Source: Candidatus Kryptobacter tengchongensis (lineage in GTDB: Bacteria > Bacteroidota > Ignavibacteria > Kryptoniales > Kryptoniaceae). From it: a stretch of DNA of 64,000 nucleotides. The stretch spans positions 186,001-250,000 of the forward strand of contig FAON01000004.1 in assembly GCA_001485605.1 (NCBI GenBank). Direction: 5' to 3'. Position 1 is the first letter of the stretch. Every line of letters starts with the position of its first letter. This document shows positions 55,747 through 61,172 of the stretch, in pieces. The notes beneath the pieces were generated by a model, which did no database searches, was not told where the DNA came from, and saw only the letters and a program-made list of their open reading frames with translations. Position numbers and translations under genes: made by a program.

Positions 55747-56586
55747 TTAGTATTCTGCAAATTCAACTTTAACCCTTTTAGGGATTAAACCCTTTTCAAA
55801 TCCCATATCAAGAAACAACTGCACTGCTTTTCTGCCTTCCTCGCCGTAATCAAGCGTTAACTCGTTCACATACATTCCAATAAATTTATCTGCAAGATTA
55901 TCATCCATACCCCTCGCAAATTTCAAAGCATATTTAAGTGCCTCATTTCTATTTTCAATTGAATATTTTATGCTCTCATATACATATTTTGAAATCTCTC
56001 TGATTAATTGCCCTCCAAGTTCCCTCTTAATGGCATTTCCACCTAAGGGAAGTGGCAAAGCTGTTTGTTTATACCACCATTCTCCAAAATCAATTATCTT
56101 AACAAGTCCAGAGTTTGAATATGTCAACTGCCCCTCGTGAATTAAAAGTCCCGCATCAACTTCACCATTTAAAATAGCATCTATGATTTTGTCAAATTGA
56201 ATTACCTTATATTTAACTTCTGGCTCAAAAATTTTCAAAATAAAGAAAGCGCTCGTCAATGTCCCGGGAACACCAACTGTGAATTTCTTTAAATCAGCAG
56301 GGTCAAATTCCTCCTTCGCTACAACAATTGGACCATAGCCAAGTCCCATGCTCGCGCCACAGGGCATAAGTATGTATCTATCAAACACATAAGCGTATGC
56401 ATGGAACGAAATTGCAGTAACATCATAAACACCATCAAGCGCTTTTCTATTCAATGTCTCTATGTCGCTTAAAATGTTTATAAATTTCAAATTACCTGAA
56501 TTAATCTTATTGTTCACGAGTGCATAAAACATGAACGCATCATCTGAATCAGGACTATGTGCAATGGTTATTTCTCTCATCTCCAT
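55747..56586 (-). CDS. mqnD: 1,4-dihydroxy-6-naphthoate synthase (menaquinone, futalosine pathway)
   Basis: The 279-residue protein has the MqnD start (IAHSPDSDDAFMFYAL), a periplasmic-binding-protein fold, SFHAYAYVFDRYILMPCGASMG and LLIHEGQLTY. It makes dihydroxynaphthoate from cyclic de-hypoxanthine futalosine, so the quinone for the reductase complex is probably menaquinone. Other mqn genes lie elsewhere. An AAAACAAA element precedes the ATG. Confidence 0.93.
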   Translation of the reverse strand: MEMREITIAHSPDSDDAFMFYALVNNKINSGNLKFINILSDIETLNRKALDGVYDVTAISFHAYAYVFDRYILMPCGASMGLGYGPIVVAKEEFDPADLKKFTVGVPGTLTSAFFILKIFEPEVKYKVIQFDKIIDAILNGEVDAGLLIHEGQLTYSNSGLVKIIDFGEWWYKQTALPLPLGGNAIKRELGGQLIREISKYVYESIKYSIENRNEALKYALKFARGMDDNLADKFIGMYVNELTLDYGEEGRKAVQLFLDMGFEKGLIPKRVKVEFAEY

Positions 56587-56607: not shown

Positions 56608-57273
56608 TTATGCTTTTGCAGATGGACAAAGTTTGCTGATCTTGCAAATTGAACATTTCGGTTTTCTCGCCTCACAAACATATCTCCCATGATCACCAAT
56701 AAGATGAGAAAAAAGCGTCCATTTATCTTTTGGGACTATTTCCATCAACTCAAATTCAATTTTGTCTGGATTTTTACTTTTAACAAGTCCAAGCCGTGCG
56801 GTTACCCTTTTCAGATGCGTATCAACTATAATTCCCTGCTTTCCAAATGCGTTTGCAAGGACAGCGTTTGCGGTTTTTCTACCGACCCCGGGAAGTTCAA
56901 CAAGCTCCTCAAGCGTATCTGGCACTTGCCCACTGTATTTCTCAACGAGAACTTGACAACAATTTTTTATTGCCCTTGCTTTGTTTCTATAAAATCCCGT
57001 CGGCTTTATCTCTTGCTCAAGAGTTTTAAGATCAGCATTTGCGTAATCATATGCGGTGCGATATTTCTTAAAAAGATATTCCGTCACCTTGTTAACCCTC
57101 TCGTCTGTGCATTGCGCTGCAAGTATCGTCGCTACAAGAAGTTCAAGCGGATTTGAAAAATTTAAATGTGTCTTCGCATTTGGGTAAAGCTTCTTCAAAA
57201 CATTTATGATCTTGCGAACTCTCTTCTTCTTATCCTGAATCGTTTCTTTTGAAAGCTTCAATTTTCCCGACAT
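56608..57273 (-). CDS. nth: Endonuclease III (DNA glycosylase/AP lyase)
   Basis: The 221-residue protein has the helix-hairpin-helix LPGVGRKTA with catalytic Lys133, catalytic Asp151 in VDTHLKRV and a [4Fe-4S] loop Cys199-x6-Cys206-x2-Cys209-x5-Cys215. It removes oxidised pyrimidines from DNA. It follows the thioredoxin-like ferredoxin gene by 3 bases with GAGG before the ATG. Confidence 0.97.
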   Translation of the reverse strand: MSGKLKLSKETIQDKKKRVRKIINVLKKLYPNAKTHLNFSNPLELLVATILAAQCTDERVNKVTEYLFKKYRTAYDYANADLKTLEQEIKPTGFYRNKARAIKNCCQVLVEKYSGQVPDTLEELVELPGVGRKTANAVLANAFGKQGIIVDTHLKRVTARLGLVKSKNPDKIEFELMEIVPKDKWTLFSHLIGDHGRYVCEARKPKCSICKISKLCPSAKA

Positions 57274-57276
57274 TTT

Positions 57277-57663
57277 TCAATCCTCAGCTTGTTTTTGGTT
57301 GTGATTTAACGGTTCAATTTTCAAATTTTTCATCAATTCGGGTTTAAATTTCTCATCCTTGATCAAAAGAGTTTCAATAACTTTACCCTCAAGCAAATGC
57401 TCATTTATAATTTTTTCTATATCCTCCTCCCTTACACCTCCGTACCAAACCGCTTCTGGATAGATCACAAGGCTTATACCATACTCACACGCATCAAGAC
57501 AACCTGCAGAATTAACCCTGACAAATTTACTTAAACCAAGTTCAGCAATCCTTTTTTTAAATTTATCCCTTAATTCCTCCGCACCTTTCCCACCGCATGA
57601 GCCTTTTGGATGCTCTGGCGGACGAATGTTTGTGCAGATGAAAATATGTTTTTTAAATCTCAC
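57277..57663 (-). CDS. Thioredoxin-like [2Fe-2S] ferredoxin
   Basis: The 128-residue protein fits the thioredoxin-like ferredoxin family: CTNIRPPEHPKGSC gives Cys-x12-Cys near the start and GCLDAC gives Cys-x3-Cys near residue 57. It is an electron carrier of uncertain partner. The start is GTG at 57663, after an AAAACAAA element. It has a 25-residue C-terminal extension without obvious motifs. Confidence 0.9.
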   Translation of the reverse strand: MRFKKHIFICTNIRPPEHPKGSCGGKGAEELRDKFKKRIAELGLSKFVRVNSAGCLDACEYGISLVIYPEAVWYGGVREEDIEKIINEHLLEGKVIETLLIKDEKFKPELMKNLKIEPLNHNQKQAED

Positions 57664-57682
57664 CTTTACCCAAAATTTTGTT

Positions 57683-57937
57683 TTAACTCCTTCTCAAGTC
57701 AATTAACAAAACAACATCTCCAGATCTTGTTCCCCTGCTTGCAAATGTCTCGTCATTTTTATATTCAAATCCACGGGTCAAATTGAAAAGCACAAAACTA
57801 TCAACATCGGTTTCACCTTGATAAATTTCACTTACAAACCTTTTCATCATCTCCCCCACTTGAAGTTCATCATCAATCTCATATCTGAAAATTTCACCCG
57901 AGAAACCTTTTCCAACTGCAAGTGTTATTTTAGTCAT
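57683..57937 (-). CDS. Ubiquitin-like beta-grasp protein, 84 residues
   Basis: I know no exact family. The order of strands (KITLAVGKGFSGEIFRYEID, a helix VGEMMKRFVSEIY, then SFVLFNLTRGF and the final SGDVVLLIDL) is that of a ubiquitin/YukD-like beta-grasp fold. It ends RRS with no di-Gly, so it is probably not a conjugated tag. Start ATG 57937 overlaps the ferredoxin stop (TGATG), so the two are coupled. Confidence 0.68.
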   Translation of the reverse strand: MTKITLAVGKGFSGEIFRYEIDDELQVGEMMKRFVSEIYQGETDVDSFVLFNLTRGFEYKNDETFASRGTRSGDVVLLIDLRRS

Positions 57938-58224
57938 CACCAGTAAGATGTTGTGATTTTAACATCTCCATAAATTCTCGTTGAACATGCAAGCCGTTCA
58001 TTCTCGGAAAATCTTTTCTCCGCCATCAATTTTCTTTCATCAGGCTCTGGTTCTGATAAATTCTCAATTCCATGAATCACAGTAATACGACAATGCCCGC
58101 AGATTTTTTCGCCTCCACAAGATTCTGCAAGCGGAATAGAGTTTTTCATAGCGACTTCAAATATCGTTTCACCGAAATCGCAAGTTATTTTAATTCCTAA
58201 GCCGTGAAAATTTATAACGGGCAT
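57937..58224 (-). CDS. [2Fe-2S] ferredoxin, plant/adrenodoxin-like fold
   Basis: The 95-residue protein has the ligands CGGEKICGHC (Cys-x5-Cys-x2-Cys near residue 36) and a distal Cys in LACSTRI, matching the ferredoxin domain of chloroplast/Fdx type. It is a soluble one-electron carrier. Its TGA overlaps the next gene's ATG. It is separated from the methyltransferase-like gene by 48 bases. Confidence 0.9.
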   Translation of the reverse strand: MPVINFHGLGIKITCDFGETIFEVAMKNSIPLAESCGGEKICGHCRITVIHGIENLSEPEPDERKLMAEKRFSENERLACSTRIYGDVKITTSYW

Positions 58225-58272: not shown

Positions 58273-59004
58273 TCAAAGATTTTTCTTTTTCATTGCAACC
58301 ACAGCGACATAACCCATCCACTTATCTCCGCCCTGATCAAGGAAAACGCTCACTTCATGTTTGAACCTTTTAACTTCTTTGAATTCATCCTTCGTGAATT
58401 TTATCTCTTTTAATGAGGTTTGAATTATCTTCTTAAACTTTGAATAATAATTTACGAGTTCTTTGCTTATATCTTGAACAAATACTGGCTCAAATCCATA
58501 ATTTTTTAATATTTTTAGTTTTTCATCAAGCGTCTCAATGCCACCGCCTTCAACATACCATGCATCCTGCACATAGGTTGGCACAGGTTTCTTCTTCCAG
58601 TAAAAATCAGCAATTCCGATGAAAGAACCATCTTTCAAAACTCTGTAAAATTCTTTCAATATCTGGCTCTTTTTATACTGGCTCAAAATCCCTTCTGTTA
58701 TTATCAAATCAAAGGTCTCATTTTCAAAGTCAAGTGAAACTGGGCTCATAACTTTAACCTTTACGATATCTTCAAGTCCATAGTTTGCTATTTCACTTTT
58801 TGCCGAGATAACTATATGTGGCAATTCATGTATGCCGTAAACATTGCACTTGAAATTTTTCGCTATATAAACAACGCTATCTTGCAAATTAACACTTGCA
58901 ACAAGAACATTCATCCCCTTTTTTATCTCAATCTTTGAGCATAGAAGTTTTGTTGTTTCCGTTCCCCCAAGTGTTGGGAGTTTGATTTCTTTGCCGTGTT
59001 CCAT
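58273..59004 (-). CDS. Methyltransferase-like protein with degenerate SAM motif
   Basis: The 243-residue protein aligns with class I methyltransferases: the DLIITEGILSQY and FYRVLKDGSFIGIADF strands and the YGFEPVFV end are intact. Motif I reads VLVASVNLQDSVVYIA in place of VLDxGxGxG, so the glycine-rich SAM loop is lost. It may bind SAM poorly or have a non-enzymatic role. It follows the UvrD helicase gene by 17 bases. Confidence 0.75.
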   Translation of the reverse strand: MEHGKEIKLPTLGGTETTKLLCSKIEIKKGMNVLVASVNLQDSVVYIAKNFKCNVYGIHELPHIVISAKSEIANYGLEDIVKVKVMSPVSLDFENETFDLIITEGILSQYKKSQILKEFYRVLKDGSFIGIADFYWKKKPVPTYVQDAWYVEGGGIETLDEKLKILKNYGFEPVFVQDISKELVNYYSKFKKIIQTSLKEIKFTKDEFKEVKRFKHEVSVFLDQGGDKWMGYVAVVAMKKKNL

Positions 59005-59021: not shown

Positions 59022-61172
59022 TTACAAGGTTATAACTTTCAAATTTGCATACTTCAAGAGTAAAAGCTTTCTCCCAAAGTTCTCAAAATCAACGAGAACA
59101 CGGGTGTTATCACCATACCCAGATATTTCCCTCACAATCCCGATTCCAAAAATTTCATGCTCAACAAGTAATCCAACTGAGAGATTTAAAGCCTGTGATC
59201 TAACTCTTGAAGTTTCATAGATTCTTGCTCTTCTGTCGTCATTTGAAGTGTGTTGAATAACAAGTTCAATTGGGATTTCGTCAAGGAACCTTGATCTTCG
59301 CTGTTCAAACATATTTCCAGCCTTCATTCTTCTTTTAGCATAAGACAGATAAAGTTTTTTCATTGCTCGTGTCATTCCGACATAAAATAATCTTCGTTCC
59401 TCTTCAAGTTCTTTTATGTTATAAAACGAGCTCACAATTGGGAAAAGTCCCTCTTCCAGTCCAGTTATAAAAACAACGGGAAACTCAAGCCCTTTGACGC
59501 TGTGAAGTGTCATCAAAGTTACAGCGTCTCTTTTATTCTCCCATGTGTCAATATCCGAAACGAGAGAGACCTCCTCAAGAAACTTTTCAAGTGTGCCATC
59601 CTCGGGATTTTCATTTGAAAATTCAGTTATCGCTGATAAAAACTCCTCTATATTTTCAATCCTTTGCTGTGCTTCTGGCGTTCCTTCCTGCTTGTAGTAT
59701 CTTATGAGACCAATATCATCTACAAGAGCTCTTGCAAGCTCACCAGCGCTTATTTTATCCTTCAAATCAATGTATTTTTGAATTAAGATACAAAAATTAT
59801 AAACACCCCTTCTTGCTCTCTCGGTCAACCCAGGGATTGCGTATAATTTGCACATTGCCTCAAAAAGCGATAGTCCCTTTGCATTTGCAAAAGCTCTGAT
59901 CCGTTCTATTGTGATATCACCTATGCCACGATTTGGAAAATTAACTATTCTGAGTAAACTCTCGTCATCTTTTGGATTTACAATAACTTTAAGATAAGCA
60001 AGTAAATCTTTAACCTCTTTTCTTTTGTAAAATGCGACGCTACCGACAATTGTATACGGGAAGCCTTCACGGCGAAGTTCATCCTCAAACAATCTTGACT
60101 GCGCATTTGTCCTGTAAAGAATTACGAAATCACGAAGATTATATTTATTTTTGCGAATTTCCTCTTTAATGAAATGAACGACTTTTTCAGCCTCATCTTT
60201 ATCATCTTTGCATTCAAGCACAACAATTGGATCCCCTTCACTGTTTTCCGTCCACAAATTTTTAAGTATTTGCTCGGTGTTGTTTTTTATGACGGAATCA
60301 GCTGCACGAAGTATTTTCTTAGTTGAGCGATAATTTTGCTCAAGCTTGAAGATTTTACATTCTGGGAAATCATTTTTGAAGTCAAGTATATTTCTTATCT
60401 CAGCTCCACGCCAGGAATATATGCTCTGTGCATCATCCCCAATGACACATAAATTTCGGTGCCTTGCGGAAAGCATTTTCAAAAGAACATATTGAACACG
60501 ATTAGTGTCCTGATATTCATCAACAAGTATATATTTAAATTTAGTCTGATATTTTTCAAGAACATCGGGATGTGTTTCAAAAAGCTCAACAGATTTTATA
60601 AGAAGATCATCAAAGTCCATTGCATTTCTTTGAAAAAGCGATTGTTGATAAGCCTTGTAAATTTGCGCAATTTTAACATCAAATTGATTCTCCGCAAGCG
60701 TCAAAAAGACTTCCGGAGTAATAAGAGCGTTTTTTATATTGCTTATCTTTGCCTGCGCAAGAGATGGATTTACATTATCCTCAGAAAAATTGAGTTCCTT
60801 TATCACATTTCTTATCAAGCTCAAACTATCATCTTGATCGTAAATTGTGAAACTTTTTGTATAACCAAGTTTTTCAGCTTCTTGTCTCAAAATCTTTGCA
60901 AAGACGGAATGGAAAGTTCCAATTGTAACATTTTTTGCGATGTCCCCAACAAGTTGGATAGCTCGTTCCTTCATTTCATTAGCTGCCTTATTCGTAAATG
61001 TCAAAGCAAGTATCTCCCACGGTTTAACACCAAGAGATAAAAGATATGCAATTTTATAGGTTAGAACCCTTGTCTTCCCGCTTCCTGGTCCTGCGAGTAT
61101 CAAAACAGGTCCATTTACCCACTTTACAGCTTCCCTTTGCTCTTTATTAAGGTCCTTCAAAAAATCCCTCAT
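59022..61172 (-). CDS. pcrA: UvrD/PcrA-type ATP-dependent DNA helicase
   Basis: The 716-residue SF1A helicase has Walker A AGPGSGKT near residue 28, motif II VDEYQDTN, the QNYRSTKKILRAA motif IV region, TLHSVKGLEFPVVF (motif V) and VGMTRAMKKLYLSYA (motif VI). It unwinds DNA in repair and replication-fork processing. Length and C-terminal tail favour PcrA/UvrD over Rep; the symbol is tentative. Confidence 0.93.
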   Translation of the reverse strand: MRDFLKDLNKEQREAVKWVNGPVLILAGPGSGKTRVLTYKIAYLLSLGVKPWEILALTFTNKAANEMKERAIQLVGDIAKNVTIGTFHSVFAKILRQEAEKLGYTKSFTIYDQDDSLSLIRNVIKELNFSEDNVNPSLAQAKISNIKNALITPEVFLTLAENQFDVKIAQIYKAYQQSLFQRNAMDFDDLLIKSVELFETHPDVLEKYQTKFKYILVDEYQDTNRVQYVLLKMLSARHRNLCVIGDDAQSIYSWRGAEIRNILDFKNDFPECKIFKLEQNYRSTKKILRAADSVIKNNTEQILKNLWTENSEGDPIVVLECKDDKDEAEKVVHFIKEEIRKNKYNLRDFVILYRTNAQSRLFEDELRREGFPYTIVGSVAFYKRKEVKDLLAYLKVIVNPKDDESLLRIVNFPNRGIGDITIERIRAFANAKGLSLFEAMCKLYAIPGLTERARRGVYNFCILIQKYIDLKDKISAGELARALVDDIGLIRYYKQEGTPEAQQRIENIEEFLSAITEFSNENPEDGTLEKFLEEVSLVSDIDTWENKRDAVTLMTLHSVKGLEFPVVFITGLEEGLFPIVSSFYNIKELEEERRLFYVGMTRAMKKLYLSYAKRRMKAGNMFEQRRSRFLDEIPIELVIQHTSNDDRRARIYETSRVRSQALNLSVGLLVEHEIFGIGIVREISGYGDNTRVLVDFENFGRKLLLLKYANLKVITL

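Follow-up and report, generated by a model that had tools for sequence, protein, structure and literature searches.

A thioredoxin-like ferredoxin gene next to the endonuclease III gene in Kryptonia and related bacteria, and an optional ubiquitin-like neighbour

In the stretch of DNA from the hot-spring bacterium Candidatus Kryptobacter tengchongensis analyzed here (the window, 64,000 nucleotides in length), the gene for a thioredoxin-like [2Fe-2S] ferredoxin (TLF) lies directly upstream of nth, and the enzyme linked to the local pair of ferredoxins is endonuclease III. This ferredoxin-nth operon, a variant of the known arrangement in which electron-transfer genes precede nth, has a strong genomic signal and a putative mechanism, and is of more interest than the small ubiquitin-like protein (UBL) encoded between the two ferredoxins. 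Two questions meet at this locus, one about the role of thioredoxin-like ferredoxins and the other about whether the [4Fe-4S] cluster of endonuclease III has a cellular reductant. A soluble ferredoxin whose gene, in dozens of genomes, abuts nth or overlaps with it offers a small, purifiable pair with which to probe both. To this the UBL adds a family with a predicted ubiquitin fold that falls outside Pfam and whose neighbours shift with lineage.

Organization of the Kryptonia locus

The features of the locus are the following.

59022..61172, minus strand: UvrD/PcrA-like helicase (named from its translated sequence)
58273..59004, minus strand: SAM methyltransferase (Pfam Methyltransf_11)
57937..58224, minus strand: Fer2, [2Fe-2S] ferredoxin, 95 aa (Pfam Fer2, 39.2 bits; cysteines; PDB profile matches)
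57683..57937, minus strand: UBL, predicted ubiquitin-fold protein, 84 aa (AlphaFold2 model, structure comparison, family profile)
57277..57663, minus strand: TLF, thioredoxin-like [2Fe-2S] ferredoxin, 128 aa, GTG start (NCBIfam, profile match and cysteines)
56608..57273, minus strand: nth, endonuclease III with [4Fe-4S] motif (TIGR01083, HhH-GPD, cysteines)
55747..56586, minus strand: MqnA/MqnD-type menaquinone biosynthesis gene (Pfam VitK2_biosynth, E 3.5e-75)

These genes follow one another with short gaps in the order listed, and AnmK comes after the MqnA/MqnD-type gene. The three reading frames described by the initial annotation (58224-57937, 57937-57683 and 57663-57277) were confirmed, as was the TGATG in which the Fer2 stop and the UBL start overlap. 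Between UBL and TLF there are 19 bases, and nth begins 3 bases after the TLF stop codon, so that the module can no longer be described as lacking an obvious enzyme. The methyltransferase precedes Fer2, and the helicase precedes the methyltransferase, in five of the six loci of the genus; the MqnA/MqnD-type gene follows nth in the sister family (f2) as well. The initial annotation had suggested looking for adjacent oxygenases in relatives; none was recognized among the direct neighbours examined, where the linked enzyme is endonuclease III. The methyltransferase (58273-59004) bears a remote likeness to the DVU_1556 and ArsM families, with scores under their cut-offs. Searches of four proteins against PADLOC returned no match at E<=1, leaving a defence role unsupported, and a promoter and terminator scan gave counts close to those of shuffled sequences and was uninformative.

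The ligand set of Fer2 is complete (C36, C42, C45 and C80, with C15 as an extra cysteine), and its x5/x2/x34 spacing is found in all 36 Fer2 reading frames of TLF loci. The initial annotation had taken Fer2 for a plant-type ferredoxin. The plant-type motif, given in a passage of PMC11138216 as C-x4-C-x2-C-x29-C, does not fit the observed C-x5-C-x2-C-x34-C, and both this spacing and the best PDB profile matches (Ferredoxin-4, E. coli ferredoxin and adrenodoxin, with ISC and adrenodoxin types among them) suggest that Fer2 is instead ISC/adrenodoxin-like. Compared with the adrenodoxin/ISC form C-x5-C-H-x-C-x35-37-C, the Fer2 arrangement C-x5-C-G-H-C-x34-C agrees in x5 and x2 but differs in the position of the His and in x34. 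Fer2 ends exactly in Tyr-Trp throughout an alignment of 15 members, as do 31 of the 36 Fer2 reading frames of TLF loci, and this C-terminus may possibly represent a docking end.

The assignment of the 128-residue protein as a thioredoxin-like [2Fe-2S] ferredoxin, on the other hand, was borne out. Its four ligands (C10, C23, C55 and C59) are complete and fit the pattern C-x10-12-C-x29-34-C-x3-C, which is kept in 123 of 123 TLF reading frames. Both the Aquifex aeolicus ferredoxin (1f37, profile match E 9.6e-33) and the Azotobacter vinelandii Shethna protein I (5abr, E 2.1e-25) share this cysteine pattern and are similar in sequence, and the NCBIfam model NF041613 matches at E 1.9e-24, below its cut-off, together with other NCBIfam models that also match under theirs. 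The Shethna protein I gene is placed in a nif cluster in a portion of PMC8561814, whereas the TLF gene described here adjoins nth; part of PMC11138216 calls the function of thioredoxin-like ferredoxins elusive. The product of nth itself scores 268.9 bits against TIGR01083 (cut-off 211.7), matches HhH-GPD and carries a complete [4Fe-4S] motif, C200-x6-C207-x2-C210-x5-C216.

Linkage of TLF to nth and of Fer2 to TLF

The TLF profile matches 124 of 391 genomes of the class at E<=1e-25. Since the nth profile search gave best matches only, linkage was measured on individual loci, one for each of the 124 genomes, and was defined as nth lying no more than 1.7 kb 3' of TLF in the same orientation. TLF is so placed in 92 of these genomes and in seven of the ten families represented: f1, the genus of the window (6/6), f2 (8/13), f13 (15/17), f22 (32/34), f26 (4/4), f10 (23/24) and f17 (4/4), the remaining families being f3 (0/7), f5 (0/4) and f11 (0/11). 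The two genes are separated by at most 24 bases, or their reading frames overlap, in 73 of the 124, distances being taken from the first possible start codon, which may overstate the overlaps. The 32 misses are for the most part real; scored among them were five TLFs close to the end of a contig (G009, G011, G015, G349 and G369), and in G015 an nth-like fragment follows TLF. In G198 the TLF match lacks an intact reading frame, and this genome counts as a miss among the 124 and is excluded from the sets of 123.

Grouping the genes found within about 3 kb of TLF in 123 genomes gave 296 clusters, 266 of them limited to a single family. TLF aside, the nth cluster reaches seven families, that of an HD-domain gene five and that of Fer2 four, in a clustering based on reading frames of at least 90 aa that undercounts UBL and Fer2. 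The surroundings of TLF are therefore mostly scrambled, and nth stands out among them. All 93 Nth reading frames of TLF loci keep the [4Fe-4S] motif. We found no earlier report of this linkage in the open-licence literature, searched mostly by paper listings.

The association is not a strict one. Matches to nth occur in 378 of the 391 genomes (350 over the cut-off) and TLF in 124; TLF is unlinked to nth in all 22 genomes of f3, f5 and f11, and, outside the class, in all seven loci examined with 1.5 kb flanks. Among 20 nth loci (12 from f10 genomes lacking TLF, 6 from f3 and 2 from f5), chosen from the best nth matches and not randomly, neither TLF nor Fer2 was found beside nth. TLF has the look of an accessory, accompanying nth within a portion of a single class and not required for it. 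Two other genes recur in these surroundings. The HD-domain gene lies 3' of nth in f22, f26, f10, f17 and f13 (L112:7687-8253 and 59 further loci), and nth is still beside it in 11 of 12 f10 genomes devoid of TLF. In f11, f22 and f10, 19 loci have a peroxiredoxin (AhpC/TSA) gene in the vicinity of TLF (e.g. L111:10896-11354).

Fer2 and TLF are adjacent or at most two genes apart in 36 of the 124 TLF genomes, Fer2 adjoining TLF in f1, f2 and f13. The three-gene set proposed by the initial annotation is conserved in other genomes, and its UBL component is optional. Six of the seven f1 genomes carry Fer2, UBL, TLF and nth in the same order, the seventh, 71% complete, being without the locus. All 13 f2 genomes pair Fer2 with TLF; UBL lies between them in four, and in the other nine the Fer2-TLF gap, of 18-151 bases, is too short for it. 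In f13, Fer2 stands beside TLF in 14 of 17 genomes, none of which has UBL there. Three f5 genomes have Fer2, c3 (a secreted-looking protein with no Pfam match), UBL and TLF, with nth not nearby, an order compiled across several locus comparisons. A gene for a PolX-type repair polymerase precedes Fer2 in 13 of 13 f2 loci and in most f13 loci too.

What the ferredoxins may do for endonuclease III

A comparable placement of electron-transfer genes is that of E. coli rsxABCDGE-nth, where nth follows immediately on a series of genes whose annotation is the SoxR [2Fe-2S] reducing system. The likeness consists in an electron-transfer module before nth: Rsx is built of several subunits, some of them in the membrane, whereas the Kryptonia locus has two small ferredoxins, and a common origin is not implied. 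No Rsx or Rnf genes were found among the nth neighbours, and no RnfC match in the genome exceeds the cut-off (four weak matches). The redox switching of endonuclease III has been studied in vitro. According to a section of PMC11840932, the oxidized enzyme binds DNA more tightly and reduction leads to its dissociation; the words ferredoxin, reductase and electron donor are absent from that text.

Given the electron-transfer genes before nth in E. coli and the redox-dependent DNA binding of endonuclease III, TLF and Fer2 are proposed to serve the Nth cluster. We tentatively favour a reading, possible though short of probable, in which TLF, joined by Fer2 in the loci that have it, either feeds electrons to the endonuclease III cluster or maintains it, and UBL is a dispensable adaptor. 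The locus would then be a ferredoxin-endonuclease III operon in its Kryptonia version. Electrons would go from TLF (and Fer2 where present) to the Nth [4Fe-4S] cluster, and reduction would return the oxidized, DNA-bound 3+ cluster to 2+, upon which Nth would let go of DNA; as an alternative to redox switching, the two ferredoxins might otherwise keep the Nth cluster intact. UBL would be an adaptor that binds one or both ferredoxins non-covalently; it would be dispensable and would have been lost on several occasions. The genomic data are compatible with electron supply as well as with cluster upkeep. The placement of the genes suggests, without proving it, that the repair enzyme is served by the two carriers. 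Electron transfer cannot be read from gene order; the linkage is established, and any contact between the proteins, the way in which electrons flow and the function of UBL as an adaptor are inferred. Several findings count against a strict TLF-Nth partnership: nth without TLF is common, TLF is unlinked in f3, f5 and f11 and in the seven loci outside the class, and an HD-domain gene likewise stays next to nth, in five families, so that TLF is not its only faithful neighbour.

In a doubtful alternative TLF has no direct tie to endonuclease III. TLF, nth and the HD-domain gene would share an ancestral stress operon, directed at DNA or nucleotide damage and oxidants, and the target of TLF would lie elsewhere. 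The persistence of nth and the HD-domain gene together in 11 of 12 genomes without TLF is in keeping with it, as are the peroxiredoxin gene near TLF in three families and the TLF genes that occur apart from nth. It accounts less readily for the position of TLF directly 5' of nth, with frames overlapping or nearly touching in the majority of the f10, f22 and f26 loci, where the other flanks change.

Somewhat less likely still is a role of TLF and Fer2 in the assembly, delivery or repair of the Nth cluster and not in redox switching, co-expression securing the cluster. Such a role would produce the same TLF-nth and Fer2-TLF linkage, and Fer2 appears to be of the ISC/adrenodoxin kind, described in a passage of PMC11138216 as donating electrons in Fe-S cluster synthesis. 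However, no Fe-S assembly gene (cysteine desulfurase or scaffold) was recognized in the loci around the trio, and nth does without TLF in the greater part of the class. A more specific form of the reading that we favour, which would make TLF the dedicated physiological reductant of endonuclease III, Fer2 its donor and UBL, as a new bacterial family of ubiquitin fold, a docking factor, and the whole a soluble counterpart of Rsx for the glycosylase redox switch, is unlikely.

The ubiquitin-like protein

The initial annotation had described the 84-residue protein (85 aa if the upstream GTG is the start) as a beta-grasp, and this has held. An AlphaFold2 model built with 15 relatives has a mean pLDDT of 93.1 and a pTM of 0.82, and compares with ubiquitin-fold chains at a best Z of 13.2 (rmsd 1.6 over 78 residues); on the basis of model and comparison, we are confident in predicting a ubiquitin-type beta-grasp. 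Nearly all of the top 50 Foldseek and VIA matches are ubiquitin, SUMO, ISG15 and the like, which is informative on fold only, and the absence of RnfH and TmoB from these top-50 lists is uninformative. At the level of sequence, UBL has no Pfam match at E<=1 and nothing meaningful in NCBIfam or the PDB. Matches to DndE (E 0.27), to ubiquitin chains (E 0.29 and 1), to glycerol kinase (15.3 bits, cut-off 590) and, in one of 16 members, to DWNN (E 0.042) were taken as chance, and a profile comparison gave no relationship to Fer2 (probability 1.0). The conserved stretches of the family are KGFSGEI, LxNxT, FEY and a late T...D, and its C-termini vary from DLRRS-like in Kryptonia to a terminal Cys in three of four f2 members and ACHK in f5.

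Small ubiquitin-like proteins are associated with electron carriers in other systems as well. RnfH, a stand-alone protein of this kind, is sometimes linked to Rnf electron-transfer genes according to an excerpt of PMC1779556, and an RnfE-RnfH pair was observed; in E. coli the RnfH-family protein YfjF, encoded elsewhere on the chromosome, is annotated as a putative component of the Rsx system, and a portion of PMC4014512 names RnfH and endonuclease III among subunits proposed for RNF whose role is obscure. In an hhalign comparison with five RnfH sequences (probability 1.8, E 0.027), UBL showed no detectable relationship to RnfH other than the fold. TmoB, the ubiquitin-like subunit of toluene 4-monooxygenase, is encoded beside a ferredoxin gene (in the same excerpt of PMC1779556); none of 16 UBL members matched TmoB at E<=1, and no monooxygenase subunit was recognized adjacent to UBL.

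The idea of a small redox or sulfur-transfer module stands in its redox half, Fer2 and TLF lying near each other in 36 of 124 genomes, and is unsupported in the other. A function of UBL as sulfur carrier or conjugated modifier, exercised together with the two ferredoxins, is very improbable, in spite of its predicted ubiquitin fold and its position between them in f1 (6/6), in f2 (4/13) and, with one further gene, in three f5 loci: the UBL of this genome has no Cys, C-terminal Gly-Gly is absent from all 20 aligned members, the ferredoxin pair and UBL each occur in the absence of the other, and the sole ThiF match and sole above-cut-off JAB match of the genome are grouped on a different contig, next to a small protein ending in Gly-Gly-Asn. 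UBL shares a fold related to that of the ThiS and MoaD sulfur carriers but not their C-terminal Gly-Gly or an adjacent E1 gene. The operon on the other contig (L276:1763-4609) is compact and comprises a cysteine-synthase-like gene, JAB, the small Ubl-like protein, whose Gly-Gly comes one residue before the end, and an E1-like protein, the first and third of these being named from sequence only.

Nor is a central place of UBL in the module supported: it is missing from the nine f2 genomes and the 14 Fer2-bearing f13 loci mentioned above, and elsewhere it occurs without ferredoxin neighbours. The nine f2 genomes lacking the intervening gene yielded no UBL at any other site either. In a FastTree phylogeny of Fer2 and TLF from 36 genomes the UBL-bearing f2 genomes are scattered, with weak inner supports, a pattern that favours repeated loss of UBL within f2.

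The UBL profile matches 35 of the 391 genomes of the class, in nine families, and its ten matches in a sample of 395 genomes of the phylum all fall within the class. In other families (L084, L085, L090, L093, L095, L096, L087 and L072) UBL is followed by a Sir2-type gene, in most cases with AcpS behind that gene and c3 in front of UBL; one f28 locus (L087) has the order Fer2-c3-UBL-Sir2-AcpS. Finally, two UBL members (L027:5968-6477 and L028:2991-3509) carry an N-terminal extension of about 85 residues that is very rich in His and Asp/Glu and looks metal-binding.
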